A stretch of DNA of 64,000 nucleotides. Origin: Nitrosococcus halophilus Nc 4. Lineage in GTDB: Bacteria > Pseudomonadota > Gammaproteobacteria > Nitrosococcales > Nitrosococcaceae. Below the pieces are notes generated by a model. That model had not been told where the DNA came from. It did not search any database and saw nothing but the letters and a program-made list of their open reading frames with translations. A program made the translations under genes and the position numbers. This document shows, one piece after another, positions 27,584 to 47,761 of the stretch; the first letter of the stretch is position 1, and every line of letters begins with the position of its first letter. The stretch covers positions 3,272,001 to 3,336,000 of the forward strand of contig NC_013960.1 in NCBI RefSeq assembly GCF_000024725.1, given 5' to 3'.

Positions 27584-28420
27584 TCAGGCAGCCAACCGTC
27601 CAGTGGTTTCATCCAAAAGCCTTGGTGCCAAAGCAATCTCCTGGGTCGTCCAGAACGCTTCCCCCACAACCGCCGCAGCCGCCACGCTAACGCCCCTTCC
27701 GCGCCATGTTTCCACCATACGCTGACTCGCCGGAGAAAGGTTTCGTCCCGCACTGGGTACAACATCTAGCCAATCCACAGCCATAGACACTGGAGGGTCA
27801 AGGCTTGCAAAACTCCGCCGTTCCAATGCCGTTGCAAGCTCTGGCGTCAACTCGTAACCCGCCACCTCCACCGTTTCCCCCCCCGCAAGGCGTTGGCACA
27901 GGGTTGCCATGCGCTCCCCTTTACTGCCAGCCATCATATCCGCTGCAAGGCGTAACCGAAGAAACTGCGTCAACATTGAGCGACCATCCACAACCGGCTG
28001 CCATAACATCAAATGACGAATCTCATCCCGGTACTGGAGCGCAAGCTCCAATGCAAGCAACCCTCCTAACCGAACACCCCAAAGTTTGATAGTTTCTGCA
28101 CCATGGCTCCGTAACCAACCCAAAGCAACATCAAGATCCGCCTTCCACACCTCCCACCGAGCATCTCTAAACTCTCCGCCGCTATCTCCGGTCCCATAGA
28201 GATCCACAACCAGCACCCCATAGCCAGTACTGGCAAGCTTCTCAGCCTGCAAAACCACCATGCGCCGGCACTTGTTCATCTCCTCGGCAAAAGCAGGAAC
28301 ATGGAGGACGGCACTCTTGGGAAAATGACTGGTTACGGCTGGCGGATAATAAACAGCGCAAATCGGCCCCAATAGACCAGGCAGAAAGAAAATATGGCGC
28401 TGTGGTGGTAAATCGGTCAC
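27584..28420 (-). CDS. Exosortase A system-associated hydrolase 2 (TIGR03101-like)
   Basis: The 278-residue alpha/beta-hydrolase-fold protein opens with HIFFLPGLLGPICAVYYPP and has LVVDLYGTGDSGGEF (about 70-84), features of TIGR03101. The usual nucleophile elbow GxSxG reads GVRLGG (115-120), with Arg117 in place of Ser, so a classic Ser-His-Asp mechanism is not supported. The family occurs with exosortase A and an acyl carrier protein, an acyl-CoA ligase-like protein and hydrolase 1. Here only the ACP is adjacent, with a four-base overlap; the expected downstream genes are replaced by an insertion sequence. Confidence 0.85.
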   Translation of the reverse strand: MTDLPPQRHIFFLPGLLGPICAVYYPPAVTSHFPKSAVLHVPAFAEEMNKCRRMVVLQAEKLASTGYGVLVVDLYGTGDSGGEFRDARWEVWKADLDVALGWLRSHGAETIKLWGVRLGGLLALELALQYRDEIRHLMLWQPVVDGRSMLTQFLRLRLAADMMAGSKGERMATLCQRLAGGETVEVAGYELTPELATALERRSFASLDPPVSMAVDWLDVVPSAGRNLSPASQRMVETWRGRGVSVAAAAVVGEAFWTTQEIALAPRLLDETTGRLAA

Positions 28421-28689
28421 AAAAGTTTTCCGTTCACAAAATCCACCAGGCTTCCCACCGTCTCAAAAGTGGATGCCTCTACTTCATCGTCATCAATCAC
28501 AAACCCGTAGTGCTCTTCTAGGGCGGTAATGACAGATACCACCGCCATGGAGTCGAACTCTGGCACGGCACCTAGCAACTGTGTCTCAGCCGTCATGCGC
28601 TGACGGACTCGGTCACTAAGCTGCAGCACCTCACTAATAATGAGAATGATCTCATCGATAGTATGAGTCCCGACAGTATTTTCATTCAT
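28417..28689 (-). CDS. Acyl carrier protein, exosortase A cluster type
   Basis: The 90-residue acidic helical protein has Ser47 in EFDSMAVVSVI as the expected phosphopantetheine site. It is a carrier for an activated acyl or similar group, made by a partner ligase or loader. Its stop overlaps the hydrolase 2 start (ATGA-type), showing tight coupling. Candidate partners in the locus are the FkbH-like protein and the CapK-like ligase, both some distance upstream. Confidence 0.88.
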   Translation of the reverse strand: MNENTVGTHTIDEIILIISEVLQLSDRVRQRMTAETQLLGAVPEFDSMAVVSVITALEEHYGFVIDDDEVEASTFETVGSLVDFVNGKLL

Positions 28690-28713
28690 TGGATCTTCTT
28701 CCTGACTTTTTAC

Positions 28714-29406
28714 TCAATATGAAACGGTAAGGGGGGTAACACGCACCACAGGGATGCTCGCTGACCCACTTGATATATGGAGATACGGTCGACAGGTCGA
28801 AAACATGAGTTGCCGCCCCCCCATCACCAGAAACAGGGCGCTACCCACGTCTACCGCACCAAGTCTACGATGGGACTCCCGTGACATTCGGTTGAATGCT
28901 GAAACCCGACTCAAGGTCCAACGGATACCACGCTCTCGAAGATACCCGTTCGCCTCATCCCAAAGTCGAGCAAAAACAAGGCTGGAGCGATAATCAGGCC
29001 GTACGTAGACATCAAAATCCCAGGCCACCTCCCCCAAGGGTTCTAAGACAAACCGACAACGAACTTCATCCTCATCGTAAGAATCTAAAATAAGCCATAA
29101 GTACCCCACCAAGGTATCATCATTAAAAGCGCCAAGACATACTGCACCCTGCTGGTAGCGATCCCGGATCGCTGCTTGGGGCCTTGGAAACGCTTTAACA
29201 ACCCCATCCTCTTCCGGCACCAAACGTACCTGAATTGAGCGACCACGATGGGGTGGAAGATTTGGTTTTTTACCTACCGGCTGCGCTACCAAGTAGTACT
29301 TGAAAAGGTCAGCCCCACGAAAATAGCGGGATAGAACTAGGTGGATGCCGTAAAGTAATGCGTTCCACCACCCTATCTCAGCCCCCAGTGCTATTAGCTT
29401 CCTCAT
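28714..29406 (-). CDS. GNAT-like acyltransferase
   Basis: The 230-residue protein resembles the GNAT fold: GAFNDDTLVGYLWLILDS (beta 4), WDFDVYVRPDYRSSLVFARLWDEA (acyl-CoA binding region) and FNRMSRESHRRLGAVDVGSALFL. It is probably cytoplasmic, with a hydrophobic N-terminal helix (about 12-28). In this locus it may acylate a sugar or a carrier-bound group. The match is to the fold; the substrate is unknown. It lies 24 bases upstream of the ACP gene. Confidence 0.7.
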   Translation of the reverse strand: MRKLIALGAEIGWWNALLYGIHLVLSRYFRGADLFKYYLVAQPVGKKPNLPPHRGRSIQVRLVPEEDGVVKAFPRPQAAIRDRYQQGAVCLGAFNDDTLVGYLWLILDSYDEDEVRCRFVLEPLGEVAWDFDVYVRPDYRSSLVFARLWDEANGYLRERGIRWTLSRVSAFNRMSRESHRRLGAVDVGSALFLVMGGRQLMFSTCRPYLHISSGSASIPVVRVTPLTVSY

Positions 29407-29474
29407 ACCAACGACCTGGTGACTCTCTCAGTTTTCTTCAAGTTAGGAAAAATCCTTAACAGAGCAACCCCCTT

Positions 29475-29876
29475 CTAGGTTAGGGCGCAAAGTGCGCATA
29501 GACGCGCCTCGGTAGCAGAAAGCAGCCAGCCATCCACCTGGATGATCCGCTCCTCAACAAAGTCCTGCTGATGGCAATGTTTCACCACCTCCGGCTTATC
29601 GCGCAATACTGCTGCCAATGAAGTGGAAGTCTCTTGTGCCTCCGGCATTGCAGCGAGAATACGCTCCACCAAAATGGCAATACTTTGTTCCTCAGGAACA
29701 GTCTGGAGATACTTCTTACCGATAAAAGCCGCACTATCCATGTCATCAAAAAAGCTTTGGAGGGCTATCGGCAGACCCTCGGTGGTGTCTACTTCCCTAG
29801 TGATTCCAAATATAGACAGACGCCATGTGCCCATGAGGGCAAGCGCGGCAACAAGAAAGCTTCGCCTTTTGATCAT
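29475..29876 (-). CDS. Small exported partner of the GMC oxidoreductase
   Basis: The 133-residue protein has a twin-arginine-like start (KRRSFLVAALAL) and a helical body. It overlaps the GMC oxidoreductase gene by four bases, the arrangement seen for the small gamma-type subunit of membrane-bound gluconate or sorbitol dehydrogenases. Similarity to gluconate 2-dehydrogenase subunit 3 is weak. If the analogy holds, it would carry the FAD subunit out through the Tat pathway. Confidence 0.55.
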   Translation of the reverse strand: MIKRRSFLVAALALMGTWRLSIFGITREVDTTEGLPIALQSFFDDMDSAAFIGKKYLQTVPEEQSIAILVERILAAMPEAQETSTSLAAVLRDKPEVVKHCHQQDFVEERIIQVDGWLLSATEARLCALCALT

Positions 29877-31447
29877 CCGACTTCTCCCCGTCTCATTAGG
29901 CCCTTGAGATGGTCAGCAAGTCGCACGGCCAACGCCACAATGGTCAGTGTTGGGTTTGAACAACCGCTAGTCGGGAACACCGAGCTACCCGCCACGTATA
30001 GATTAGCAATGCCATGCACACGACAATCTGGATCGACCACCCCCAGCTTGGGGTTCCGGTGCATGCGCGTGGTTCCCATATGATGGTTACCGCCCCCCAG
30101 TTCAGCAGGCCATGAAGCCACTTCTCCATCAAGCTCCACTCGCATGCGCCCTAAACCAGCCGCGCCAAAATCAAGGGCCACCAGTTCATGGGAACGTTGC
30201 AAGCTATGCTTGTCGATGGCACTCAGTTTCCAATCGAGCGCAACCCGGTTCTGGCCAAGGGCATCACGTTCATTGGAAAGCCTCACTCGGCTATCTGGGT
30301 TGGGAACCTGCTCAGAGCGATTATGGAGCACCAAGACCTGAGGGACAGCATTTTCCTGGCCCCTCAACCGACGATAGGCGTAGCCAGCAATCTCGTCAAA
30401 ATTTACCATCACCCGCTTTAGATTCCATAGGAAATGCTCAGGCATTTCCCCCCGTCCAAGGGACTCGACGATATGTTCAAATGCATCCAGACCTGGGATA
30501 GAGTAGGGTCTGAGAAAGGCCGAAAAATTGACCAAATTCTCCTGCCGAGCCACCTTCTCCGAAATAGTCACAGCTCCCCGTGCTCGCACTCCGTGCAGTT
30601 TCTGTGTTTCATAGAAATCAGTGACCACCCCATCGCGCACTGGCATCAACATTCCAGAGTAAAGGTGGGGGTGCTCCATAAAAAAACGGCCTACGAGATC
30701 ATACTCATTCCCCAACCCGGCTTTCCGCGTCCGATTTGAAAGCAGCAAAATGCGTGCATTCTCAATACCTCCGACAGCCAGCACAAACTGCTTGGCTGCT
30801 ACTTGAAAACGCTTCCCATCCAAACAAGCAACGCGAGCCCGAGCAACCCGATTTAGAGGATCCAAGGTCTCAAACTCCACCACATTGGCATGCAGGTATG
30901 TCGCTATATTGGGGGCCCCCTCGATCTCCTCTCGATATACCTGACCAAAGCGGGTGGGGGGACTGAATTGAAAAAGCGTGCTAACGGCCCGAGGTCCCTT
31001 AAAAGTCGGTGGGGGTGCGCCCGGAACTAGCCAGTCCCCCGGTTCGTAGGTATAGGGACCAAGCTGGCAAATGCGATGGGCGCGTTGGTAATAGGAATCC
31101 AGTTCCTCCCGTCCAAAGGGCCAACCGCTATAGGGAACCCAACTCCGTTTCTCAAAATCCATTGGATCCAACGGCCGGCAGGCCCCGACCCAATGGTTGG
31201 TACTGCCTCCGAAGTACCTCAAACGGGTGGAAGCCAGGGGATAGTAGCTTTGACCGATATTTTCCCCCTCATACAAGGCTTGAGTTTGGGCATCAAATTC
31301 CAACCCGCCACTCTCCAGCAGACACACGCGAAAGGGCTGGGAACGTAACTCCCGGGCTAGAGTAATGCCAGCCGCTCCTGCACCGACGATACAGATATCC
31401 GTCTCTACCAGATGATCCCTCGGAACGCTACGGGCATCGATGAGCAT
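29873..31447 (-). CDS. GMC-family FAD oxidoreductase
   Basis: The 524-residue protein has the FAD-binding GAGAAG (22-27) followed by ESGG, STRLRYFGGSTNHWVGACRPLD, and a C-terminal NHHMGTTRMHRNPKLGVVDPDC and NPTLTIVALAVRLADHLK. The C-terminal His/Asn pattern of the GMC active site is partly visible (NHHMGTTRM). It oxidises an alcohol or sugar hydroxyl, probably on a sugar of the exopolysaccharide or its lipid precursor. The small gene downstream could be its export partner. Confidence 0.88.
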   Translation of the reverse strand: MLIDARSVPRDHLVETDICIVGAGAAGITLARELRSQPFRVCLLESGGLEFDAQTQALYEGENIGQSYYPLASTRLRYFGGSTNHWVGACRPLDPMDFEKRSWVPYSGWPFGREELDSYYQRAHRICQLGPYTYEPGDWLVPGAPPPTFKGPRAVSTLFQFSPPTRFGQVYREEIEGAPNIATYLHANVVEFETLDPLNRVARARVACLDGKRFQVAAKQFVLAVGGIENARILLLSNRTRKAGLGNEYDLVGRFFMEHPHLYSGMLMPVRDGVVTDFYETQKLHGVRARGAVTISEKVARQENLVNFSAFLRPYSIPGLDAFEHIVESLGRGEMPEHFLWNLKRVMVNFDEIAGYAYRRLRGQENAVPQVLVLHNRSEQVPNPDSRVRLSNERDALGQNRVALDWKLSAIDKHSLQRSHELVALDFGAAGLGRMRVELDGEVASWPAELGGGNHHMGTTRMHRNPKLGVVDPDCRVHGIANLYVAGSSVFPTSGCSNPTLTIVALAVRLADHLKGLMRRGEVG

Positions 31448-31478
31448 ATATTTACAATTCCCTATTCTAATTTATGTC

Positions 31479-32432
31479 CTACGCCGCCCCTCCACCGAAG
31501 CGGAAGAGAGCCCGAACCCGACGCCCAAGCCCGACCTTGTCCAGCAATGCGGCTCCTCGGGCCGTTATCCTGTCAAAGCCCATGTGAACGAGAATGAGCG
31601 CCACCATTCCTGGTGTCCGGCGCAAGAAGAACACATTGGCGCAAAGCTGGCTGCCAGTGGCGAAGAATTTTTTATGTTCACCGTATCCCTCGCTAAAGTC
31701 AAAAAGCCGATGTTGGCCCTCGCCGAAGAGGTGCTGAAAGACAAACCAGTGGAGGACGGTACCAGGGGAATAAGCAGAAAACGCTGGATCATAGCCTAGA
31801 TACTGGTAGAGCACTGTACCTTCCCGCACTGGACAATAGAGATACGAGATCGGCTGTTCGCCACAAAATAAAATAAAACCCCGAGCCTGATCCTGCTCCG
31901 CAAGCGTTAGCATCCCTGCTCTGAATATCTCTGTATCCGGCAAGCCCTGCCCCAAAAGCCGCTCTTGATAGGTTTTCTCAGAGACCTGACGCGCCAGGGC
32001 GTAGAACTCGGTAAGCTCATGGGGTGTTGTATACACGCGCCATTGCACTTCCCCACCCGACATCTTAGCGAATTTTCGCACTTTCCGGCGAATAGTAGAG
32101 CGGGATTTTGATGAAAATTTGGCGCAATATTCCTCAAATTTCTGTCCAAGATCCACATAATAGCGCGGATATTGTGCCGGAATGTAACGAAGCCAACCGT
32201 CCACAAAACGTAATTGTGGTTGCCGACTATTGACGGGTAACGATCGCATTAGATAACCGTCGATCTCGGGCGGCAAACTCTCCCGAGGCGGCGCCGGAGA
32301 ATCAACCGGGCCACCAACTCTTCCAACCCCCCCCTCACTGACCTCAAGCCGCAAAGCCGGGGCCCATAAAACCCTTGCACTGACTTCGAACTTGAGGGGG
32401 ACCTGCAAGACCCGCGGGGAAGAAGCTATCAT
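31479..32432 (-). CDS. FemAB-like GNAT acyltransferase (Acetyltransf_6)
   Basis: The 317-residue protein has the double-GNAT fold of FemAB relatives: KFEEYCAKFSSKSRSTIRRK, TEFYALARQVSEKTYQERL, GYDPAFSAYSPGTVLHWFVFQ and FDFSEGYGEHKKFFA. Such proteins transfer acyl or aminoacyl groups to cell-envelope sugars. The stop of the deacetylase upstream overlaps its start by four bases, so they may modify the same residue in sequence (deacetylate, then re-acylate). Confidence 0.8.
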   Translation of the reverse strand: MIASSPRVLQVPLKFEVSARVLWAPALRLEVSEGGVGRVGGPVDSPAPPRESLPPEIDGYLMRSLPVNSRQPQLRFVDGWLRYIPAQYPRYYVDLGQKFEEYCAKFSSKSRSTIRRKVRKFAKMSGGEVQWRVYTTPHELTEFYALARQVSEKTYQERLLGQGLPDTEIFRAGMLTLAEQDQARGFILFCGEQPISYLYCPVREGTVLYQYLGYDPAFSAYSPGTVLHWFVFQHLFGEGQHRLFDFSEGYGEHKKFFATGSQLCANVFFLRRTPGMVALILVHMGFDRITARGAALLDKVGLGRRVRALFRFGGGAA

Positions 32433-33388
32433 GCCAAAACTCTTCGTGATGCCTGTTCTAGGACACGGAAAACCGTATAGGCAACATTCGACTGGATTGG
32501 TTGGGGTTCACCTGGAAATATTCTCGGCGCGAGTTCTAAAAAGCCTTGAGTCGGATACAAGTCGCGATGCCGTTCCAAAAATCGGCATAAGCGGCGGAAC
32601 CTTTGCACCACTATCGGATCAGGCCTCGTGCGGGTCCGATCCAAAAGCTCAAAGCCATGGGAAACCATGACGAATGACTCCCACCCAGACTGCTCCGCGG
32701 CAACCAGCGCCTTTGTCAGCTCGCCGTAGGATGCCGCCGCAAGTTGCGCGGGACGGAAATGCCCCGGCCAATCTTCAAAGGCGCTTACGGGATACTCATA
32801 TACCCCCTCAACCTGGACCGCTTGCCACAATTTACCCCCCTTTTCGATCCCGCTGGTCTCTCCCCGCACGCAAGGATTGTAACTCGTATCCATGGCAACA
32901 CCGTTAGCGGCAAGCGCCTGTAGCGTCTCGGCATTGAAACCGTAGCCGCCGGCACGAAAAGCCTTGACCTGAGGTGCGCCCGCCGCACGCAAATGACTGA
33001 GTCCCCACTGGATTAACCTGCTCTGCTCGTCCAGGGAGAAACTACGCATCAAATGACCCCGACGCTTCGGAAACAATGGCTGCTCGAGCTTATCGACCCA
33101 CTCGGGATGAAGGTGAAGGTGTACCTCATGACCTGCTCCCTGAATAAGCCCGACAATCTCCGTGAGCGGTTGTATACCAAACCGGAGCGCAAATAACGCC
33201 TCGATAAAAAATGCACCTCGAAGTCCATGATCGTTGAGGATTTGAAGGGTCATGGGGAGACCATAATCGCCCCGCCCCGTCGGACCATAGATATAGCGGC
33301 GGAAAGCTCCGGGGAAACGCTCATCCAGCCGATCCCACCCCTCTGGCCAAATTTCAACATCGACGGTGAAAAAAACGTTCAACGGCAT
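32429..33388 (-). CDS. Polysaccharide deacetylase
   Basis: The 319-residue protein has a NodB-like domain: FFTVDVEIW (metal Asp region), GAFFIEALFALRFG, and HEVHLHLHPEW with metal His residues; a later FRAGGYGFNAETLQAL matches motif 3. It is probably cytoplasmic and acts on an N-acetylated sugar. It lies directly upstream of the FemAB-like gene with coupled translation. It is one of three deacetylase genes in the locus. Confidence 0.85.
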   Translation of the reverse strand: MPLNVFFTVDVEIWPEGWDRLDERFPGAFRRYIYGPTGRGDYGLPMTLQILNDHGLRGAFFIEALFALRFGIQPLTEIVGLIQGAGHEVHLHLHPEWVDKLEQPLFPKRRGHLMRSFSLDEQSRLIQWGLSHLRAAGAPQVKAFRAGGYGFNAETLQALAANGVAMDTSYNPCVRGETSGIEKGGKLWQAVQVEGVYEYPVSAFEDWPGHFRPAQLAAASYGELTKALVAAEQSGWESFVMVSHGFELLDRTRTRPDPIVVQRFRRLCRFLERHRDLYPTQGFLELAPRIFPGEPQPIQSNVAYTVFRVLEQASRRVLA

Positions 33389-33427
33389 TTCCTAGAACGC
33401 TCAACTCTTCTAAGATTACGGGATAAC

Positions 33428-35248
33428 TCAATGTCCATGGGCTTGGAGCCAAAGCTCCAGCATCATCAGTATCCATACTAATTCCCCATAATAGGCAGCA
33501 TGCCCGGTTCGGTGAAGATCGATAGCCCGCTCAAGAAACCCGGGGCGGAAATAGGGTCGCTTTTTGAGGCAGAGCAGACTTTCATAGGCAAGCTCCCGGA
33601 GCGGGGCGTGTTCCGCCATCCACACGCCAAATGGTAATCCAAAACCATGCTTATGTTTCATGATGGTCTCCTGGGGAAGGAAATCGCGCATGGCTTCCTT
33701 ATAGAAGTGGCGAAGACGCCGCCCCTTGAGTTTGAGCGCCGACGGTACCCGGCAGGAAAATTCAAGAAGTGGATCATCGAGCAGCGGATACACAACATCC
33801 ACCCCTGCAAGCGCACACATTCGTCCAACCTTGCGCAGATCATTGTCCGCAAGGGTCTGCTGCCAATCAAGATACATCATCCGATTGAGCGCCGAAGCAT
33901 TTTGGGGCCTCGTATATCGCTCCCGTTGCAGGAGCAAGGGCTCTTCCGGCGCTAAGGCGGCTAAAAAATCTGCCTGAAACATTTCTTGGGCACCTTCCCG
34001 CTGAAGGAAGTTGTAAGCCTCCAAGCGATCCGGCAGTGGCGTCATCGCCTGGCGCACATAGCTTTGCGCTTTCCGGACGACACCGACGGTCTCTGGCAGA
34101 CGGAACAAAAGAGGCTCCAATAATCCCCTCCGCAGAAGGAGGGGCATTACACCGTAATACTCGAAAACCTGCTGTTTGGCGTAGCGGGCGTTGCCCGCAA
34201 AGATTTCATCGCCCCCATCCCCTGCAAGCAGACGCTCCACACCATCATTAGCGGCAAGCTTGGCACAGTAGTAAACGCCCACCGCCGAGGAATTGCCAAA
34301 AGGCTCGTCATAAACCCGGGCAATCTCGGGCACTATGGCACAGACATCTTCAGGTGTGACATAGTATTCATGTTGCTTGGTGCCGAAATGTCGGGATACG
34401 GTGCGAGCATAACCCATCTCGTCATACCCGGTCGCCGTAAAGCCAATGGAGTAGGTATTGGCGTTGCCCGGCTGCAATCTGGCAAGCATGCCTGCCAGGG
34501 TCGAGCTATCCAGGCCACCACTCAAAAAGGCGCCGGCTATCCGCCCCTTGCTAAGGCGTTCAACCGATTCCAGAATAAGGGTGCGCATCTGTTCGCCTAA
34601 TACATCGAGATTGGCACTATTGGTTTCATCAAAAGGGGGTTCCCAATAGCTTCCCATGTGGATTTGATTGCCGTCATATTCTACATAATGGCCCCCCGGC
34701 AGCTTGTGCAGACTTGAGTAAATAGTGCCGGGACTCGGAACCATATGGGCGTAGACATAATTGTAAATGGCCTGGGACGAGAGCGAGCAATCAATGCCCG
34801 GATGAGCCCGTACGCAATCGGCGCTTGAGCCCAAAACAAATCCACCACCAGCCGCCGCATAGTAGAGGGGTTCCTGCCCGACGCGGTCCACCGCCGCAAA
34901 TACTCGGCCCGAACGGCCCTCCAGTACGGCCATGGCAAAGGCACCATGAAGGTATTGCAAAAGCCCCGTACCGTGGCGCCGATAGGCTTCACCAAGCGCA
35001 TCACCTTCTCCTTGCTCCCGGGCAATGCGTTCAAGCTCGGAATCCGACCACCAAGGCTGCCCCGTGATTGCAACCACTAGCCCTTCGGGAAGCAGGGCTA
35101 ACCTTTGTTCGGACGCCGCACAGGCAGCCCGCTCAATCAAGGCTGTGCATAATTTCCCCGAATGCCGAAAGCCCTTGCTCATCTCGCGGAGCAACTTCTC
35201 ATCACTTAGCTCTTTAGGGAAATTGGATAACCCACAAAGGCCCATCAT
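33428..35248 (-). CDS. Asparagine-synthase-like amidotransferase, degenerate glutaminase domain
   Basis: The 606-residue protein has a C-terminal AsnB synthetase domain with the ATP-binding AGAFLSGGLDSSTLAG and DGGDEIFAGNARY. The N-terminal class II amidotransferase domain is altered: the start reads MMGLCG, so Cys is residue 5 and not the usual residue 2, and the NGE glutamine site reads TGQ in AITGQPWW. This suggests it does not use glutamine and that it may form an amide or similar bond using ATP. Contrast with the intact XrtA amidotransferase at 52923-54890. Confidence 0.82.
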   Translation of the reverse strand: MMGLCGLSNFPKELSDEKLLREMSKGFRHSGKLCTALIERAACAASEQRLALLPEGLVVAITGQPWWSDSELERIAREQGEGDALGEAYRRHGTGLLQYLHGAFAMAVLEGRSGRVFAAVDRVGQEPLYYAAAGGGFVLGSSADCVRAHPGIDCSLSSQAIYNYVYAHMVPSPGTIYSSLHKLPGGHYVEYDGNQIHMGSYWEPPFDETNSANLDVLGEQMRTLILESVERLSKGRIAGAFLSGGLDSSTLAGMLARLQPGNANTYSIGFTATGYDEMGYARTVSRHFGTKQHEYYVTPEDVCAIVPEIARVYDEPFGNSSAVGVYYCAKLAANDGVERLLAGDGGDEIFAGNARYAKQQVFEYYGVMPLLLRRGLLEPLLFRLPETVGVVRKAQSYVRQAMTPLPDRLEAYNFLQREGAQEMFQADFLAALAPEEPLLLQRERYTRPQNASALNRMMYLDWQQTLADNDLRKVGRMCALAGVDVVYPLLDDPLLEFSCRVPSALKLKGRRLRHFYKEAMRDFLPQETIMKHKHGFGLPFGVWMAEHAPLRELAYESLLCLKKRPYFRPGFLERAIDLHRTGHAAYYGELVWILMMLELWLQAHGH

Positions 35249-35459: not shown

Positions 35460-36116
35460 CTAAGGCCAATGCCCCACTTTTTCCAATAGCTTTTTCAGAC
35501 CTGGCAAGGGATACCCCAGCTCATAGGCGGTGGTAGCGTATTTTTTAGCGAGTTCATATTTTTTAAGATCATAATAGAGCAACCCCAAATTATAATTCAG
35601 CTCCGAAGAACGAGGGATTAACTCCAATCCGGTCTTATATTGCTCTAGAGCCTGCTCCAGCTTACCGCCCTTATGGAGGTGGATGCCATACAACATTCTC
35701 ACAACGCCATCTTCAGGGCGAAAACGGATAGCGCGAACAAAATAGCACTCTGCCGACCGGCGCCACCGCCATCCTGCCTTCTGGGGCAACCTCCCCCCGT
35801 TCCGGCGCTCGAACTGGGACACCGCATACAGCGCCTCATGGTAATTGGGAAAATGCAGAAGCGTGTAGTCCAAGTTCTCCATGATGTACATGGGATGTCC
35901 ATCAAACCGGCGAATCTGAGGACGAAAATGATGATCGGCCACAAGTTTCAAATGACGCCGCGCGGCAGGATGGGGATCCAGGTAATCGTCCTGGCGATCC
36001 TGGTGCCGCGCCGTCTCGGGTAACAAGCTACCACATCGATCCTGAGCCTGTACCGCCATGGGAACCATTGCAGCTAATACCAGGGAAAAAAAACCGTACT
36101 CCAGCCAGCATCGCAT
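35460..36116 (-). CDS. Secreted TPR protein
   Basis: The 218-residue protein begins at ATG 36116, which has GGAGG upstream (an earlier in-frame start at 36209 lacks one). It has a signal peptide (about 1-24, ending VQAQ), a Cys-containing mature N-terminus, and tetratricopeptide repeats in the C-terminal half (ALEQYKTGLELIPRSSELNYNLG and AKKYATTAYELGYP). It is probably periplasmic, as a protein scaffold, perhaps for assembly or export of the polysaccharide. No specific partner can be named. Confidence 0.75.
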   Translation of the reverse strand: MRCWLEYGFFSLVLAAMVPMAVQAQDRCGSLLPETARHQDRQDDYLDPHPAARRHLKLVADHHFRPQIRRFDGHPMYIMENLDYTLLHFPNYHEALYAVSQFERRNGGRLPQKAGWRWRRSAECYFVRAIRFRPEDGVVRMLYGIHLHKGGKLEQALEQYKTGLELIPRSSELNYNLGLLYYDLKKYELAKKYATTAYELGYPLPGLKKLLEKVGHWP

Positions 36117-36307
36117 ACCAACCTCCGCCTCACCATCAGACTCCAAATTATTATCCCGCTCTTCTGGTAGCCTCAGCAAACGCTTATTTAACCTTAGCCT
36201 AGCAACCACTCCCTCAGAAGATTCTTTTGACTTTCGCGGATATTTTGCTCGCTATCCCAACAAGCACCAAACCGCCTTAATCCACTATGGATTCTCGGCT
36301 CGCTTTC

Positions 36308-38170
36308 TCAATGCGGTAATACCGACCCCCTCACTTCAATAAAATTGCAAGCAAAAGAATCCCCCTTAACCTCTCGTCCTAATCCCCCCTTCTCATCCGG
36401 CTTGAACTTTAGTTCATCAAGAACCTGTTTAGCTGGAGCGTTGCGGTCTGTTTGGCAAAAATTAACCCACAAACGCTGCACATCACCCTTAGAATACTGC
36501 TTGGCCAAGAAGTCAAAAAGTGCTTGCTCAATAAACTTCCCCTGGACCCGACAAGACAGCATAAAATCTTCAATCTCGATAGTTTCAGCGTCTTGCCGTA
36601 CGATACAAAAACCTACCGTACCATAGGAACCAAATTTATCCTGGCATTTAAGCACCCATTTGTCGCGTTCAGCATCACCGAGGATGAGCTGAATTTGATT
36701 CCGGTCGTATTTGCGGCCAGAAAAATTGAGTTGATTCGTGCGCTGAACGAGTTCGGTGATACGCTCAAAGCTCTCTGATGCATAGGGTTGAATATCGAGT
36801 GAAATTCCACAGGAGCGCAAAAAATCAATGTAATCACCACTAAACCCTTCTGCAGCCTGATGACGCATGATATTTTCTTGGTAAAGTTTCCGGCGCCTCC
36901 CTGCCTCCCCACTGGAGCTACCCTGAAACCGAGGCTCCTTGACAAGTTCAGTCACTTGACTCACATGGTGGCATGCCACCTGGGGCAGTGCTTGGCCTAC
37001 TTCTTTTAACTCAAATTCGCTGTCATCAATAAAAACACAAGCATCCAGGCCAATATTTAAATCTTTGGCAATTTGGGCTATGTTTTGCGATTTGGGAAGC
37101 CAGTTGATTTTGGGATAGAGAAAGAACTCTGTCAAACCTAATTCCTGAAGCTTTGACCAAGCGTGATCATGGGCATTTTTACTGGCAATAGACAATAAAA
37201 TACCCCGCTTATCCAACATCTCAATTAGATCTTTCATTCCCGGACGTAGAACAACTTCCTCCCTCTCCAAGAGCACACCATCCCACAAAGTATTATCGAG
37301 ATCGAAAATCATGCATTTCGCATTCGGCTTAATAGCCTTAGGGTTCTCTTTGACCTCCCCCACCCCTGCCCTAGACTTAGACGATAAGGTTACGAAATCC
37401 AAAGAAAGAAAGACCAGCCGTGCACCTTTATCCGCCTCCGGGAGCAAAGCAATATTAAAAGCAAGCCCACTCTCAATAATGCTCTTAAAAGCAGTGGCCG
37501 GAATAAGCTTGTGGAAAAATCCAGAATCAATTGTCAGCTTGTCGACAAAGGGATGCGGCAATTGCTCTAAAGGAACCCCCATCGGCACCCTGCTTCGATC
37601 AATCGACATCACAAGCTGGAGCGACAAGGGTTCGGGGGTAGGATTGTAAATCTCCACCAGGAAACCATCCGGCTGCACCTTCATCTGTCCTTTTCGAAGT
37701 TGCTGCACAAAACGCTCCATTAATGCATAGGTGGCATAATTCCAGCGAATGTTACCTGTCATCTTGCCCAGTAGCCGGCCTACTGTATTTGTGATCAGCG
37801 AAAACGCGGTGGTGGCCTGCTCAAGGATCCGTACCTGCCAAACGGGCATCATCCGCACGTTACCTCGGGTTTCAATCTTACCCCACCTTTTAAAAACCAC
37901 CTCTGCGCCAAAGCCATGCAAAGACGGGAAATTACGGTTGCGGTAAAGCCCATATTCAAAGCGACGGCAGCGTTTATCAGGACGGGCCTCATAGAGATCA
38001 CAGCTGGAAAAGCAGGCTGGAGCAGCGCATTCAATGCAATGCTCCCCCCACATCAGAAAAGAAATTTTCTGAATCCCAGTCGCTGACATATGCGCTGTCT
38101 CAGGCCTAGCAGGCGGTTTTGAGTGCCGATGGGCTTCATACTTGTCGAACTCAAACATCCTCGTCTCCAA
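36308..38170 (-). CDS. FkbH-like HAD-IIIC protein with unusual Cys-rich N-terminal domain
   Basis: The 620-residue protein has three parts. The N-terminus (about 36-70) holds Cys45, Cys48, Cys53, Cys57 and Cys68 in the spacing C-x2-C-x4-C-x3-C, followed by a domain of unknown kind (to about 270). The HAD-IIIC domain (about 284-430) has FDLDNTLWDG, with Asp290 and Asp292. A C-terminal GNAT-like part follows (about 480-610). FkbH proteins load a glyceryl unit on an acyl carrier protein; an ACP is present downstream. The start could be 38170 or the ATG at 38158. Confidence 0.8.
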   Translation of the reverse strand: METRMFEFDKYEAHRHSKPPARPETAHMSATGIQKISFLMWGEHCIECAAPACFSSCDLYEARPDKRCRRFEYGLYRNRNFPSLHGFGAEVVFKRWGKIETRGNVRMMPVWQVRILEQATTAFSLITNTVGRLLGKMTGNIRWNYATYALMERFVQQLRKGQMKVQPDGFLVEIYNPTPEPLSLQLVMSIDRSRVPMGVPLEQLPHPFVDKLTIDSGFFHKLIPATAFKSIIESGLAFNIALLPEADKGARLVFLSLDFVTLSSKSRAGVGEVKENPKAIKPNAKCMIFDLDNTLWDGVLLEREEVVLRPGMKDLIEMLDKRGILLSIASKNAHDHAWSKLQELGLTEFFLYPKINWLPKSQNIAQIAKDLNIGLDACVFIDDSEFELKEVGQALPQVACHHVSQVTELVKEPRFQGSSSGEAGRRRKLYQENIMRHQAAEGFSGDYIDFLRSCGISLDIQPYASESFERITELVQRTNQLNFSGRKYDRNQIQLILGDAERDKWVLKCQDKFGSYGTVGFCIVRQDAETIEIEDFMLSCRVQGKFIEQALFDFLAKQYSKGDVQRLWVNFCQTDRNAPAKQVLDELKFKPDEKGGLGREVKGDSFACNFIEVRGSVLPH

Positions 38171-38283: not shown

Positions 38284-39000
38284 TTAATCGAGCCGAACAA
38301 TAAAGGATTTTCCCAAGGGAGAATAATCGAAATAGGAGATAAAGCGAATATCTGGGTTAGCCTCGATAAATTCCTGCAATGCCCGCGCTTCCCCTTGGTC
38401 GGTGGCGCCTCTATTATTGTAATAATCATCGAAACAGACAATCGAACCATTCACCAAATATTTCTTAACCCACTGCAGTACAGTGCATGTTGACTCATAT
38501 AAGTCACAGTCAATATAAACGATTGCTGCCTTAACCCCTTGCAAACGCCTATCCAACTCCTCATTCAAGCTTTGATTGTAAAATCCTTTCACCAGCTCGA
38601 ACTCTCCTTCCCGCACGCCCTTGGACTTAAGTGTTTTGCGCAATTCCGCTTCAGAAAAGGCGAATTGCCCTTCATGCCAAATGTTATCAGCGGTATTCCG
38701 GTGGGGGGGCAACCCTTTAAACGAATCAAAGCCGCGAAGGAAAGTATCCTTCAATCCGTACCGCCTTTTCATTGTATGAGCGTAAAGGAATGTCTTGCCC
38801 CGCCATAACCCAAACTCAAAGTAGTCTCCTTCAACTTTGTTGATTTTTTTGAATTCAAATGCCTGGGCAATCATCCCGAACTCAGTCATACGGTTTTCTG
38901 TGCGCCGATCAACAACTTCCAACACGCGCAATACCGGCCATGAGGAGAGCAACCGTCTTAAAAGTTCTCTCAATATCCCTCTCCTGGAATAACCACTCAC
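38284..39000 (-). CDS. TylF/macrocin O-methyltransferase-like
   Basis: The 238-residue class I SAM methyltransferase matches the TylF/MycF family: DYFEFGLWRGKTFLYA (SAM site), DTFLRGFDSFKGLP, VYIDCDLYESTCTVLQW and the FDDYYN metal-binding segment. In macrolide pathways these enzymes O-methylate a deoxysugar; here a sugar of the polysaccharide is a likely target. Its start lies only 15 bases past the stop of the NodB deacetylase gene upstream, which suggests co-transcription. Confidence 0.8.
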   Translation of the reverse strand: MSGYSRRGILRELLRRLLSSWPVLRVLEVVDRRTENRMTEFGMIAQAFEFKKINKVEGDYFEFGLWRGKTFLYAHTMKRRYGLKDTFLRGFDSFKGLPPHRNTADNIWHEGQFAFSEAELRKTLKSKGVREGEFELVKGFYNQSLNEELDRRLQGVKAAIVYIDCDLYESTCTVLQWVKKYLVNGSIVCFDDYYNNRGATDQGEARALQEFIEANPDIRFISYFDYSPLGKSFIVRLD

Positions 39001-39015
39001 ATTACTTTGATACTA

Positions 39016-40038: not shown

Positions 40039-40097
40039 AGCTCTTCACCGCCCCTATACCGTTGCCTACCGCCGAACCTACAGTCCCAACACACCCC

Positions 40098-42194
40098 CTA
40101 CGACCCTGACTGGGAATGAGACTGCAATAATCCCTTAAGCACCCCCCTTACCCGTTCTCCGAGCGCTGGCGCATCATACACAAGTCCTTCGTCAAGCTGC
40201 TGCGCCACATGTCGAAGCCAATAAAGGGAGACAAAAGCGGCATGGTGACTGGGATCGAGACCACAACAATAATAACTTCCCTCAAGAAATTGTTGCTCTT
40301 TCTCAGTGAGGTGGTCCCAATGGGAGAGCAGCGGTATTGTCTGCGCAAGGCTGATCCCCGGATTTAGATAGCGATAGGTACTCTCCAGATAGTTAAGGGC
40401 ATCCAACACCGGTATCCCTAAAAGATCGGCATTATCCCAATCGATCACCCCCGTTATCCGGGCATCACGCATAAAGATGTTGCGTGTACTGAAATCCCCA
40501 TGAACGAGCCCACGGCGCACTTTCAGGCCATATAACCGCTCCCGAAAATAGGCCTGTGCCTCTTCCATAAACACCGAAATGTCTGAGACACGGGCTAACT
40601 GCTCCAGAGGTATGAGCACTTGGCGCTGGTAGAACTCGCCCGAAAGGGCCTCCGGTACTCGCGCCTGAAGGCCGGAGTTTAGTGCTTGCAGAAAACTCGA
40701 CACCGCTTGGAGACAATCCGAATGGCTGCTCCTCCCCAACGCAGTCCTCAACGGACAACCTTCCACCCTGGTCTCGGCATAATAGGACACTCCCTGGACT
40801 TCACCTGCCGCCAGCGCCTGCGGCGTTAACTCCCGGAGTGTCCCCATCTGCTCTGCCTGTTTGAGAAACCGGTGATTACGCTCGGCACCCGCTGCGGCAG
40901 AAGCATTAAAAGGCAGCTTCACAACCATGGGCCGATGCCCGGCACAGCCGCTGATGACCCCCTTGCCCTTGCCTGTCGTGTAAAAATGGGTAAAGGAGAC
41001 GGATTTCTCCTCAAGGTCGAGTTGGGACTCAATCGCGGCCGCTACTTGCTCCGCCAATGACAAACCGGTAGAGCCTTGCGGAGAGGCAATAATTCCATAA
41101 GCGGGGACAAAATGTGAATGACGTCGGAACTGTTGATGGCCCTGGAGCTTAGGAGGCTGCCAGAGCCTCTTATCGATCTGGAGAGGAATCAATTCAGCCA
41201 GGTGGGTATATCCAGGGGTAAGCCCGTAAATTTCATGATTTGAGAAGCCTACGGCACTAAGAAGCCGACGGTAGCCACTGATAGAATAGGTATAAGTCCG
41301 GTAAGGGCGGCGAGCCACCGCAATGGAGTAAAGATTGGCCAGAAAACGTGGCAGCAACGAGGCAAACCATAGGCCTGAGTGGTGATCCCGCCGCCCACCG
41401 AAATAACGATAGCTCAAACGGTTTTCAATGGCGATGAAAAGCTGCCCGCTCGGTTTCAATACTCGACGGATTTCGCTCAGGAAGCGAAGCTGCGTTTTAC
41501 GGGGATTGGCCGCGCCAAAAAAGCTTAAAAACGCCCCCATTGCCTTTCCCAGTCGGGATCCGCCCCGATCCCAGACGCCCTGGTCGTCGGCCACCCACTC
41601 CAATACACCCGAAAGGGCCACGCAATCAAAGCTGCCATCCGGAAATGGCAAAAAGGGGCCATCGCCACCCGCCAGCAGCCGGATATCATCATCCGGATTA
41701 AAATGCTCGAAGCGTACCCGGGCGAATTTAAGTCGCTCGAAAGTCAAATCCAAAGCATAGACACGGCCTGCGCTCGGGGCAATGTTCTTGGTCAGGTTTC
41801 CCAACCCGCAACCCAAGTCAAGTACTCGAGCATTTGGCGGCAGCCGCAATAACAGTTTCCAAGCGTAACGCCCGTCAGCGATCAAGTTGTCAAGCCAATC
41901 AGGATTTTGGCCCACCCCCCTGAGGAAACGCCGTACCGTATCCGCCCACGGCAAATGGCGTGCCTCGCGGGTGAGTTCATCCATGGCCTCCCGAGGAATG
42001 GGATTAAAATAATAGTCCCGGCGGTGGCAACGAAAATCCACGATGCCATCACGAATGGGATAGGTCGCCCCGCAAGCGTCGCACTCAAGCGCCGTATCGT
42101 CCGCCACAATGGCACCTGCGCAACGGGGACACGCAAGATCGTTTTGCGGCACGCGATTCCGGCGGCTTATGGTCAAGGCATTTGCCGAATTCAC
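40098..42194 (-). CDS. Zinc ribbon/SAM methyltransferase/phosphotransferase fusion
   Basis: The 698-residue protein joins three modules. A Trm112-like zinc ribbon (Cys22, Cys25, Cys38, Cys41) is followed by a SAM methyltransferase (VLDLGCGLGNLTKNI, about 124-138) and a C-terminal aminoglycoside phosphotransferase-type kinase with VHGDFSTRNIFM (catalytic Asp) and GVIDWDNADLLG (metal site). Such kinases phosphorylate small hydroxylated compounds. A methyl-phosphate cap at the non-reducing chain end, which controls chain length in some O-antigens, is one possible function, by analogy with WbdD-type enzymes that also couple methyltransferase and kinase domains; the families differ. Confidence 0.8.
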   Translation of the reverse strand: MNSANALTISRRNRVPQNDLACPRCAGAIVADDTALECDACGATYPIRDGIVDFRCHRRDYYFNPIPREAMDELTREARHLPWADTVRRFLRGVGQNPDWLDNLIADGRYAWKLLLRLPPNARVLDLGCGLGNLTKNIAPSAGRVYALDLTFERLKFARVRFEHFNPDDDIRLLAGGDGPFLPFPDGSFDCVALSGVLEWVADDQGVWDRGGSRLGKAMGAFLSFFGAANPRKTQLRFLSEIRRVLKPSGQLFIAIENRLSYRYFGGRRDHHSGLWFASLLPRFLANLYSIAVARRPYRTYTYSISGYRRLLSAVGFSNHEIYGLTPGYTHLAELIPLQIDKRLWQPPKLQGHQQFRRHSHFVPAYGIIASPQGSTGLSLAEQVAAAIESQLDLEEKSVSFTHFYTTGKGKGVISGCAGHRPMVVKLPFNASAAAGAERNHRFLKQAEQMGTLRELTPQALAAGEVQGVSYYAETRVEGCPLRTALGRSSHSDCLQAVSSFLQALNSGLQARVPEALSGEFYQRQVLIPLEQLARVSDISVFMEEAQAYFRERLYGLKVRRGLVHGDFSTRNIFMRDARITGVIDWDNADLLGIPVLDALNYLESTYRYLNPGISLAQTIPLLSHWDHLTEKEQQFLEGSYYCCGLDPSHHAAFVSLYWLRHVAQQLDEGLVYDAPALGERVRGVLKGLLQSHSQSGS

Positions 42195-44817: not shown

Positions 44818-44838
44818 CCCACCGATATCATCAAATCG

Positions 44839-46077
44839 TCAACGGGAACTATTGAAAGGAAATATCATTTCTCCTGACCGGAGAAACCGATCACGAAAAT
44901 TCCTGGATTTACTGGGACGAGGATCTTCGAGTTCTTGCTCCTCATCGGAAAGCGGCAAGGGATCAGGCCGATAAAGCCAGACATTGCGATCAACGCTGTT
45001 GATAGCAATGAAGACATCGCTTTTCGGAGAGTAACGCCAGCGGCCGAAAGTCCCTGCGGAGCCATTATTGCGGCTCGGCCCGTCGCCAGCAGGCATATCT
45101 ACTGTCCAGGTAAGAGTGACAGGATCGAGGATATAAACTTCGTTTGCCTGAGTACTGCCACACAGAGAAGACGCGCCACACCATGCCACAATCTTGTCCC
45201 GTAGGGGATCATAAGCTACGCCGGGAGAACCAGCATTGATAATGGCATCGCCACCCATAGTAGCGATACTCTCCAAGGTAAAAGGAGGGTGAAGAAGGAG
45301 CGTATTAACGGCACCATCCCCCACAAACCAGATCTGGTGGCGCCTAGTGTCTAAGGTGCCGGTCCTATAGAGCATATCTAAATCGATCCCTGAGACCTCT
45401 TTTATCCACATGTTCATGGAAAAATCGAAGCTATAGAGGGCCTTCTCAGCCCCCGAGTTTTTCTTAGCATAGATCTTTTGACTTGCCGGCTCATAAATAA
45501 CCTGTACAAAGTTATCTCCAACCGGGCTCGTCCGTTTTCTCCGATCCCAGCGCCCACTATTGGGATCAAAAGTCCAGCTATCCTGAAGGTTCCCCCCATT
45601 CCGGCACGACGTCACCCCCCCAAATAAGAAAAGTTCATTGAGATGATTAACCCAAGCCAAATGGTTATAAGTATGCCGGGCAGTCGGTGTAAGTCCTCCA
45701 TCCCAAGTGCTGTAGCAAACGGTATCGGCATCGGCTGCGGGTGTGGTTGAGTCCGTCAAGCGGGCCCACTCCTCGGTGTCAAGGTCGAACTCATAAACCT
45801 CGTTACCATAATAACCATTATGCCCTCCCCCCATGAGAAACATCCGGTTCCCGGCCGAATCAAAGGCTCCCCCCGACCAACTCTCGATAACTGCGGCGCA
45901 ATCTCTCGTCGAGGGACTGACAGATTCACTTGGACAGACCTCCCGCATATGAGTCCCGGGAATCTCTATCCAAGTTCCTGCCTGTACGGCAAAACTGATG
46001 AACACCCAGATAATACAAGCAAAAAAAGGGTACACACTTCCTTCCTGGCTCTGGCAATAGGTATACCTTCGCTTCAT
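44839..46077 (-). CDS. Secreted kelch-like beta-propeller protein
   Basis: The protein is about 412 residues from the preferred start at 46077 (AAGAG eight bases upstream; the frame is open to 46260). An export segment (about 16-32, VFISFAVQAG) is followed by kelch-type repeats: MFLMGGGHNGYYGNEVYEFDLDTEEW, ELFLFGGVTSC and NEVYILDPVTLTW. Cys residues may form disulfides in the periplasm. Propellers of this kind bind carbohydrates or act like galactose oxidase relatives, but no catalytic copper site was recognised. It lies directly upstream of the heparinase-like gene. Confidence 0.7.
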   Translation of the reverse strand: MKRRYTYCQSQEGSVYPFFACIIWVFISFAVQAGTWIEIPGTHMREVCPSESVSPSTRDCAAVIESWSGGAFDSAGNRMFLMGGGHNGYYGNEVYEFDLDTEEWARLTDSTTPAADADTVCYSTWDGGLTPTARHTYNHLAWVNHLNELFLFGGVTSCRNGGNLQDSWTFDPNSGRWDRRKRTSPVGDNFVQVIYEPASQKIYAKKNSGAEKALYSFDFSMNMWIKEVSGIDLDMLYRTGTLDTRRHQIWFVGDGAVNTLLLHPPFTLESIATMGGDAIINAGSPGVAYDPLRDKIVAWCGASSLCGSTQANEVYILDPVTLTWTVDMPAGDGPSRNNGSAGTFGRWRYSPKSDVFIAINSVDRNVWLYRPDPLPLSDEEQELEDPRPSKSRNFRDRFLRSGEMIFPFNSSR

Positions 46078-46402
46078 AATTATTCTCTTCATAATTAATA
46101 GGCAAGAGTTTCTAGTACAATAGACGATCACTGGCAAAAATTTGCTGTTTTCCTGGTGCAAAATACCTGCAGAGCAAAAACGGACACCTCCACAGGTAAC
46201 GGATATAGCTAATAGCAGTATAGCCCAACACAACCAATTAAACAGTTTTACAATGAGCACGAGCGGGGCGCCTAGGATAGCGATGATCTACAGCCCCGAA
46301 ACCCTGGGAAGTGCTAGACAATCCCTTTATATTCAATATTTCGCGCCATTATTGGCCTTTTAAAGGTCGTAATAAACACGATTTCCAGAGCCAATCGCGA
46401 AA

Positions 46403-47761
46403 TCACGAATCCAGGGCCATATGACTGACTACATAACGAAATTTTCCTGAGCGCTCAGGCAGTATCTCTGTAACCTCTTCAACGTTCACGCAGACCCCTT
46501 CACCAAGGCGCGCTCGAAAACCTCGTCGAATTGCCTCTTCAATGGCACGATTATATCCGCTGACAGGCACCACCAATACCCGCACTTCGGTCTTATTCTC
46601 TTGGATAATCTTGAACGATTCGATTCCTGGGAGATCGCGCAAGACATAAATCAGCGCGAGCCCATGCATCACCGTACCATCCGAGGCGACGACAAAGTCC
46701 GTAGTCCGCCCTTGAACTTCCTTAAGCACCGGCAGAGACCGGCCACAACCGCACGGCTGATTATCAAAAACCGCCACATCACCGGTACGATAGCGGATAA
46801 AGGGGAACTCGCGGGTGGCAAGGTGAGTCACCACCACCTCACCGGGCTCCCCTGCACCTACAGGTTTTCCTTCCCGGTCGATTAATTCCACCACCATATC
46901 CTCGGCCGTAACATGCATACTGCCCGCCGGGCACTGATGGGCAACGAACCCCGCGTCGCGCCCGCCATAACCATTGGCGACTTGACACCCAAATTCGGCC
47001 TCGATACAGCGGCGCTGGTCATCGTAGAGGCGCTCTGCAGTAACAAAGGCAACCTGTATCCCAAGATCGTTCATCGGTACGCCCCGCTTCTGGGCATGGC
47101 GGGCAATGTGCGCAAGCGCACTCGGATAGCCAAACAGCATCTTCGGTCGCAAGCGCCGGATCTCGGCGACAAAGTAGTTCAAGTTGTCCTCAGACATTTC
47201 AAATGCCGACAATAAACGCGTCCGCAAAAGCCGATCCCGCCACGCCCGCAGACGGTTCTGAGCCCCAAGCTCTACCGGTGATCCCCACACCACTACTTCG
47301 GGATCGCCTATATCTACTCCCCACCAGCGGGTCGCCCGCCACTTGGCAGCCACATCGTGACTTACTCGCTCCTTACCTAGATAAAAAATCAGGGGTTCGC
47401 CCGTGGAACCACCGGTATTAAAACGGATGAGGCGCTTTGCGCCGTTCGCCTTAAGAGACTCAAGGTTTGCCCGTATCCGATCCTTCGTAAGAAACGGTAA
47501 CTTCGACAGGTCCTCGGGAGAATGGATGTCCTGGGGCCCACACCCCGCTTCTGCAAATAACTGGCGGTAGTAAGGCACTTGCAATGAAGCGGACTCAATT
47601 AGGCTTCGCAGGCGCGCTGCTTGGAACTCCGCCAGGCGTTCCGCCGGCCACCACTGGGTGGTTTCAAGTTGGCGCAGAATGCGAGTCGTCCCATGCCCTT
47701 TAAGGCGTTCGTGAAGCGGGAAAATGGCTCTAGAAATAAAACGGGTGGCAAAAGTCGTCAT
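46403..47761 (-). CDS. Phenylacetate-CoA ligase-like / CapK-like adenylate-forming protein
   Basis: The 452-residue protein resembles the CapK/PaaK group: NTGGSTGEPLIFYLGKERV (nucleotide-binding P-loop-like), VNGYGGRDAGFVAHQ (ATP site) and FIRYRTGDVAVFDNQPCGCGRSLPVL with a Cys-rich loop. These enzymes activate a carboxylate through AMP. CapK-like proteins are common in capsule loci and may load acyl groups onto a carrier. It overlaps the glycosyltransferase gene by four bases. Confidence 0.82.
   Translation of the reverse strand: MTTFATRFISRAIFPLHERLKGHGTTRILRQLETTQWWPAERLAEFQAARLRSLIESASLQVPYYRQLFAEAGCGPQDIHSPEDLSKLPFLTKDRIRANLESLKANGAKRLIRFNTGGSTGEPLIFYLGKERVSHDVAAKWRATRWWGVDIGDPEVVVWGSPVELGAQNRLRAWRDRLLRTRLLSAFEMSEDNLNYFVAEIRRLRPKMLFGYPSALAHIARHAQKRGVPMNDLGIQVAFVTAERLYDDQRRCIEAEFGCQVANGYGGRDAGFVAHQCPAGSMHVTAEDMVVELIDREGKPVGAGEPGEVVVTHLATREFPFIRYRTGDVAVFDNQPCGCGRSLPVLKEVQGRTTDFVVASDGTVMHGLALIYVLRDLPGIESFKIIQENKTEVRVLVVPVSGYNRAIEEAIRRGFRARLGEGVCVNVEEVTEILPERSGKFRYVVSHMALDS

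Follow-up and report, generated by a model that had tools for sequence, protein, structure and literature searches.

A candidate FkbH-type decoration cassette beside part of a split acyl carrier protein set in the exosortase A locus of Nitrosococcus halophilus

FkbH proteins are known from antibiotic assembly lines. Surface sugars can receive acyl groups, as with the tetronate (3-deoxy-L-glycero-tetronic acid) genes of Vibrio cholerae O1, an acyl carrier protein (ACP)- and ligase-based system that decorates an O-antigen amino sugar and to our knowledge includes neither FkbH nor TylF. A further set of genes is catalogued with exosortase A (XrtA): the TIGR03098 ligase, the TIGR03099 decarboxylase, an ACP and the TIGR03101 and TIGR03100 hydrolases, all under models that are named by association and typed as hypothetical equivalogs. 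Here we compare these systems with a window of 64,000 nucleotides from Nitrosococcus halophilus Nc 4 (G000:C2:3272001-3336000; genome of 4.145 Mb in two contigs), in which the minus-strand genes from 63822 to 27584 form one XrtA exopolysaccharide locus. An earlier note on this DNA had tentatively joined six genes lying on one strand within 28417-47761 (ACP, GNAT, FemAB-like, FkbH, TylF-like and CapK-like) into a single module for an acyl or glyceryl group on the polysaccharide. All six genes are there, on the minus strand, and the proposal as a whole is partly supported: FkbH, TylF and the FemAB-like gene occur together and are lost together, but the ACP and the CapK-like ligase appear to belong to other, known components of XrtA loci. 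Our tentative reading, to which we give a little less than an even chance, is that two systems share the stretch, namely the displaced XrtA ACP set and an optional cassette of FkbH, TylF, the FemAB-like gene and a divergent polysaccharide-deacetylase-like gene (pdaw) that would add a glyceryl-type group. Among the titles and abstract starts of open-licence papers listed in literature searches, none described this cassette, and a search of open-licence papers joining FkbH, exosortase and ACP found nothing.

In the window the cassette lies in two halves. The FemAB-like acyltransferase (31479..32432; Acetyltransf_6, PF13480, 8.5e-25) and pdaw (32429..33388) are separated from FkbH (36308..38170; TIGR01686, 240.5 bits, cut-off 146.65) and the adjoining TylF-type O-methyltransferase gene (38284..39000; PF05711, 67.5 bits, cut-off 23, 1.4e-18) by asnB2, a second asparagine-synthase-like amidotransferase (33428..35248; PF00733), and by a TPR protein found in the Pfam scan (35460..36209). 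We found FkbH-domain matches in 30 of 120 genomes drawn from the Nitrosospira family, made up of 11 full-length orthologues (at least 1170 bits), two divergent full-length forms (G939 and G921), one broken gene (G886) and 16 domain-only matches. Full-length orthologues from genomes of this family are 46-50% identical to the window FkbH. In all 11 genomes with an intact orthologue the genes are contiguous in the order glycosyltransferase, XrtA, glycosyltransferase, asnB1, pdaw, FemAB-like, TylF, FkbH, with the pdaw orthologue each time between asnB1 and the FemAB-like gene and the FemAB-like orthologue between pdaw and TylF. Among the matches listed for a draw of 120 genomes of the same kind, a TylF orthologue (at least 456 bits) was present in the same 11, and G874 has a weak TylF relative at 92 bits. 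Four of the 11 genomes, Nitrosospira multiformis Nl7, Nitrosospira sp. NpAV, Nitrosospira sp. MGR_bin421 and Nitrosovibrio sp. Nv4, also stand among 50 genomes of the 80 ACP loci described below, where an FkbH-domain match was found in 10 and a full-length FkbH in these four. The co-occurrence in other XrtA loci that the earlier note had asked about thus exists; that the group might be found only in this genome, one of the outcomes it named as refuting, did not arise and is ruled out by these orthologous cassettes. On the strength of this distribution, pdaw, FemAB-like, TylF and FkbH appear to be an optional sugar-decoration cassette.

The second line of evidence is joint loss. In the sister species G059 and G061 the order of the locus is preserved, with protein identities of 61-86% except in the outer-membrane protein (48%). 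The FkbH of G059 survives as a relic of 97 aa with five stops and a further 27 aa; TylF is there reduced to 20 aa with one stop and pdaw to 156 aa with two stops, besides smaller pieces. The FemAB-like protein has only a 21% match elsewhere in that genome and no orthologue. In G061 FkbH, TylF and FemAB-like are without match and pdaw is a 72-aa relic with one stop. Between these remains, asnB2 (82% identity) and the TPR protein (67-75%) are, like PDA, ACP and hydrolase 2, complete or almost complete and free of stops in both sisters. With FkbH-TylF and pdaw/FemAB-like reduced to relics or gone and the genes between them intact, two non-contiguous halves were lost jointly, and the two sisters may share one initial loss. 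Regarding base composition, FkbH (47% GC) and TylF (45%) fall below 16 other genes (49-59%). A recent capture of FkbH-TylF by this species alone is nevertheless not the whole story, because relics stand at the same place in G059.

A further case is G886, where pdaw and the FemAB-like gene are kept, FkbH is reduced to residues 359-616 in two frames and TylF is missing. Here (L230:9260-13514) a further Acetyltransf_6 protein, a GNAT protein and a 409-aa open reading frame (ORF) replace TylF and the FkbH N-terminus, from which the decoration slot seems to be exchangeable. A tree built from four neighbour genes that are intact places G886 as sister to G809 and G873 (91-92% identity), both of which keep FkbH and TylF; it therefore looks like a separate loss. 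Independent support for the cassette comes from two lineages of loss and, in Nitrosococcus, from the split arrangement.

The ACP has other company. Its gene (28417..28689; PF00550, 1.6e-5, 25.5 bits, cut-off 20.8; serine in EFDSM) overlaps by 4 bases the gene for hydrolase 2, exosortase A system-associated (27584..28420; TIGR03101, 326.2 bits, cut-off 202.75), and judged by profile matches and neighbours the pair is the probable displaced half of the catalogued XrtA set. The TIGR03098 ligase (826.8 bits) and TIGR03099 decarboxylase (655.1 bits) are found at G000:C2:2240418-2243230, about 1 Mb from the window, and a weak hydrolase match is also about 1 Mb away. In G059 and G061 the ligase and decarboxylase lie within about 7 kb of hydrolase 2. 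Past this gene come hydrolase 1, the ligase and the decarboxylase in the sisters, and a DDE transposase (26309..27454; PF01609) in the host. In another Nitrosococcus species, G060, none of TIGR03101, TIGR03098 and TIGR03099 gives a match above its cut-off and no ACP of the XrtA type is found at E ≤ 1e-5; this species may be without the set. The closest solved structure to the ACP is PDB chain 2lki_A (2.1e-20), which we take to be an ACP of N. europaea; a search of open-licence papers for an ACP structure from that species returned none.

The same association is seen across larger samples. A TIGR03101 match at E ≤ 1e-45 occurs in 9 of 397 phylum-sample genomes, host included; of the eight others one (G672) falls under the curated cut-off. 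An ACP homologue lies beside TIGR03101 in seven of these eight and a few kb off in the eighth, and within 40 kb there is a TIGR03099 decarboxylase in seven and a TIGR03098 ligase in six. FkbH, TylF and the GMC oxidoreductase were found in none of the eight within these 40 kb (tblastn with window and G059 proteins, E ≤ 1e-8). An ACP-profile scan of the genome collection gave at least 525 confirmed places, and the following counts refer to the best 80 of these, many of which are truncated by the end of a contig (46 are flanked by 9 kb or more on each side): hydrolase 2 in 70 (68 within 1 kb), hydrolase 1 in 66, ligase in 51, decarboxylase in 48, GNAT in 14, CapK in 5, deacetylase-like in 3, FemAB-like in 2, FkbH in 1, TylF and GMC in none. 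The ACP thus goes with the TIGR03101/TIGR03100 hydrolases, often with TIGR03098/TIGR03099 and mostly without FkbH in the stretch seen, which speaks against its place in the module of the earlier note. The GNAT protein (28714..29406; PF00583, 25.5 bits, cut-off 20.7) is directly upstream of the ACP, and is so on the same strand in three nitrifier loci (L129, L150, L172).

The CapK/PaaK-like adenylate-forming ligase (46403..47761; PF00501, 34.2 bits, cut-off 29.9; PaaK-type NCBIfam models below their cut-offs) is not supported as part of that module either, as both sisters keep it (81-82% identity) although FkbH and TylF are relics or gone. By its conservation it is likely a core XrtA-locus gene and no part of the cassette. 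In the accessible text of a 2006 study a CapK protein is tabulated among the top profile hits for the exosortase system (PMC1569441); that portion makes no mention of hydrolase, ligase, amidotransferase or acyl carrier terms.

We consider it unlikely, then, that FkbH loads the ACP at 28417-28689, the CapK-like ligase activates, and the GNAT and FemAB-like proteins transfer, all as one module. Such a module would suit the single run of genes in the host, the XrtA-type ACP present in all 11 family genomes with intact FkbH (in 9 of 11 on the same contig, 70-106 kb from FkbH), and a different FkbH about 8 kb from the ACP in L109/L190; in G921 and G939 the ACP is 14-20 kb from the divergent FkbH, a distance that speaks for a link in these two genomes. 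However, the sisters retain ACP and CapK at 77-82% identity with an FkbH relic or none, only 4 of 50 genomes with such an ACP have full-length FkbH, six genomes have this form of FkbH without a strong XrtA-type ACP, and the ACP of many XrtA loci is accompanied by a ligase and a decarboxylase of its own. We rejected the single module as the best explanation because ACP and CapK outlast FkbH and TylF and because this FkbH form occurs without a strong ACP. For the latter reason the use of the window ACP by FkbH is unproven.

As a separate observation, a second, distant FkbH type of 592 aa is encoded at L190:9316-11094 (= L109:678-2456) in Nitrosospira multiformis Nl7, where the distance to the XrtA ACP is about 8 kb. 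Its neighbours are a methyltransferase, a hexapeptide transferase, a glyoxalase-fold protein and a WbqC-like protein. It seems that XrtA regions have acquired FkbH-type enzymes on more than one occasion.

Regarding the window FkbH itself, residues 283-590 form the HAD-IIIC / FkbH domain, ahead of which an N-terminal domain of about 275 aa is fused. Homologues begin at residue 5 of the called ORF, which puts the probable true start at 38158. No Pfam family matches the N-terminal domain at E ≤ 0.01, and C45, C48, C53, C57 and C68 are invariant in an alignment of five sequences; by these signs it is a putative undescribed, cysteine-rich domain. All 64 FkbH domains aligned (from 66, with L023 and L025 left out as too short and L016 identical to L218) share D290, D292, G298, G323, N332, K360, D382, D383, R470, Q480, S539, C540 and R541, and Cys540 of the S539-C540-R541 motif is plausibly the residue that would hold a thioester. 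A midpoint-rooted tree with limited sampling (68 rows, 66 distinct sequences) places the 13 full-length forms together (ultrafast bootstrap, UFBoot, 100; 0.88 by FastTree) and as sister (UFBoot 98) to seven stand-alone FkbH proteins. Three of the seven (L279, L280, L281) belong to annotated runs with an ACP, an acyl-CoA dehydrogenase and a 3-hydroxyacyl-CoA dehydrogenase, a fourth (L080) has the same arrangement by Pfam, a fifth (L081) stands beside an acyl-CoA dehydrogenase and the remaining two are on short contigs. The closest sampled relatives of the cassette FkbH therefore appear to be the FkbH proteins of methoxymalonyl-ACP-type cassettes. Taken with the co-occurrence and the joint loss, this placement makes glyceryl transfer to the polysaccharide, which the earlier note held possible, a sensible reading.

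Full-length FkbH is not specific to ammonia oxidisers. A search with the N-terminal domain found it in 7 of 398 genomes, the host and six others that are all outside the host's class, and we know of no ammonia oxidiser in the class or classes of those six. Two of the six (G456, G435) have pdaw-like and FemAB-like genes beside FkbH; by tblastn with the window proteins G444 and G485 have neither in the stretch seen around FkbH, which in G485 is close to a contig end. No XrtA, TylF or ACP was found by tblastn in the stretch seen around FkbH in any of the six. At the Pfam level a polysaccharide deacetylase is next to FkbH in G639, G732, G939 and G921. Counting the window, the 11 orthologues, G939, G921 and these six genomes, 18 of 20 intact full-length FkbH genes have a deacetylase-type gene no more than about 3 kb away, which makes such a gene their steadiest companion. 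This companion, and not the XrtA-type ACP, would suit an FkbH that is no acyl loader at all, with the HAD site hydrolysing another phosphate and the N-terminal Cys domain recruiting the protein to the deacetylase. We regard such a role as very unlikely, since the family-wide S539-C540-R541 and HAD residues are kept and the protein is sister to the FkbH of methoxymalonyl-ACP-type cassettes. A bolder extension of the cassette reading, which we rate as quite unlikely, is that the fused FkbH constitutes a distinct, undescribed family making surface-polysaccharide glyceryl groups from 1,3-bisphosphoglycerate, that with the deacetylase and the FemAB-like protein it swaps N-acetyl for (O-methyl)glyceroyl groups, and that its Cys-rich N-terminal domain replaces the ACP, the group being passed on with no ACP involved.

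The place of TylF depends on its partners. In the 120-genome draw TylF was found at orthologue score only with FkbH, among the matches listed, and FkbH occurs without TylF in G939 and G921 (none nearby, and neither among the TylF matches listed) and in the six other genomes within the stretch seen. This one-way dependence fits a TylF that acts after FkbH or on its product, and favours, as far as co-distribution can indicate, the FkbH product as substrate. Its nearest solved structures in a profile search, however, are sugar O-methyltransferases (CalS11, NovP and the mycinamicin III 3''-O-methyltransferase), and the substrate may be a sugar or the glyceryl group. If TylF methylated a sugar hydroxyl and FkbH supplied an acyl group elsewhere on the same sugar, the shared sugar and not one acyl chain would link the two enzymes. 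We hold this to be possible, on the unlikely side: the dependence of TylF on FkbH is explained more simply if the FkbH product is the substrate, yet inheritance within a single clade explains it too.

For the two systems that we propose, gene content and order, co-distribution, joint loss, invariant residues and tree placement are what was observed, and the chemistry, carrier, acceptor and sequence of steps are our inference. In the XrtA set the adenylating TIGR03098 ligase would load an amino or acyl acid on the ACP, and the pyridoxal phosphate-dependent decarboxylase TIGR03099 would probably act on the loaded ACP, by analogy to the butirosin-type pathway. In the cassette FkbH would take glycerate from 1,3-bisphosphoglycerate, with the HAD site removing a phosphate, and would keep the glyceryl group in thioester linkage, plausibly to Cys540 and afterwards to a carrier. 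An amino sugar of the lipid-linked repeat unit would be freed by the deacetylase-like pdaw protein and acylated with the glyceryl group by the FemAB-like transferase, and TylF would O-methylate this group. A glyceryl, perhaps O-methylglyceryl, decoration of the polymer seems a reasonable prediction because of the co-distribution, the joint loss, the retention of family-invariant FkbH residues and the tie to methoxymalonyl-ACP-type FkbH.

Several observations weigh against this scheme. The 11 cassette genomes are one family and hence, being kin, not 11 independent cases. The pdaw and FemAB-like homologues occur together without FkbH in the stretch seen (G692; L158, on opposite strands) and with a broken FkbH in G886. 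Of the six genomes with full-length FkbH outside the host's class, two have a weak XrtA-type ACP (28-35 bits) and four none. The pdaw protein is under the PF01522 cut-off (17.4 against 23.1 bits), two scanned orthologues from the Nitrosospira family are non-significant in Pfam (E 0.22 and 0.083), and the pdaw-like protein of G435 has no Pfam match; comparison with the XrtA deacetylase (hhalign 91.6%, 8e-7) indicates distant homology only. The FemAB-like protein matches no FemAB model (PF02388), has besides PF13480 a Mig-14 match under its cut-off, and pairs with the FemAB-hit protein of the locus (60214-61272) at an hhalign probability of 15%. PDB profile searches with the FemAB-like and pdaw proteins gave no matches. 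A prediction of the FkbH structure from one sequence was unusable (predicted local distance difference test score, pLDDT, 34), and the sugar O-methyltransferase relatives of TylF belong on this side as well.

The surroundings were covered by a Pfam scan of 30 window ORFs between 23428 and 63822. Ahead of the stretch the locus runs through an outer-membrane protein, an XrtA-type deacetylase, a FemAB-type protein, glycosyltransferases, XrtA (57343..58986, minus strand; Exosortase_EpsH + DUF3485, PF09721 1.3e-79) and an epimerase, followed by the amidotransferase TIGR03108 (1110 bits) and a TIGR04063 glycosyltransferase (633 bits). Genes that bear on the interpretation and that the earlier note omitted are hydrolase 2, pdaw, asnB2, the DDE transposase and, on the minus strand like these, a GMC oxidoreductase (29873..31447; PF05199, 1.9e-25) with a 133-aa ORF starting MIKRRSFL (29475..29876; no Pfam or NCBIfam match), which overlaps the GMC gene by 4 bases. 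Given the Tat-like start of the small ORF, 29475-31447 perhaps encodes a periplasmic GMC dehydrogenase and its small subunit. G059 has no match to GNAT, GMC or the small ORF; G061 keeps GNAT intact, with a 41-aa GMC relic and 64 + 14 aa of the small ORF. Two further proteins of the window are conserved in both sisters, a 698-aa fusion of a Trm112-like/methyltransferase half and an APH-type phosphotransferase half (40098-42194; 74-75% identity) and an 855-aa protein in which PD40 repeats occur together with a match to the middle domain of hydrazine synthase alpha (50218-52785; 5.4e-12; 74-76% identity). Outside the window, parts (31% and 25%) of the first 12 kb of the 65.8-kb second contig are 84-86% identical to plasmids of Nitrosococcus watsonii and N. 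oceani.

Compared with described systems, the ACP and hydrolase 2 of the window fit the XrtA-associated set, with the difference that the set of this genome is split across about 1 Mb. Our analysis separates this catalogued, functionally unassigned set from the adjoining decoration genes. For the latter a precedent is the flagellin of Campylobacter jejuni, where according to the accessible part of PMC3068675 pseudaminic acid carries di-O-methylglyceric acid and Cj1295 is needed; that part does not mention an acyl carrier, a methyltransferase, Cj1300 or Cj1302. The likeness is a methylated glyceric acid on a bacterial surface sugar, while sugar and setting are different. If our reading is right, it makes a specific chemical prediction (glyceryl or O-methylglyceryl) for an exosortase A-linked polymer and names a testable partner set of FkbH, TylF, FemAB-like and deacetylase-like proteins. 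Closest to the window FkbH are the FkbH proteins of methoxymalonyl- and hydroxymalonyl-ACP cassettes (FK520; tetromadurin Mad14 with the ACP Mad12), which share the HAD-IIIC / FkbH domain and form the sister clade. No FkbI-type acyl-CoA dehydrogenase, FkbK-type 3-hydroxyacyl-CoA dehydrogenase or polyketide synthase was found by Pfam among the 30 window ORFs. In contrast to these cassette proteins the window FkbH bears the additional N-terminal domain of about 275 aa, sits with deacetylase-like and FemAB-like genes in an XrtA polysaccharide locus, and represents a separate branch tied here to the exopolysaccharide loci of ammonia oxidisers.

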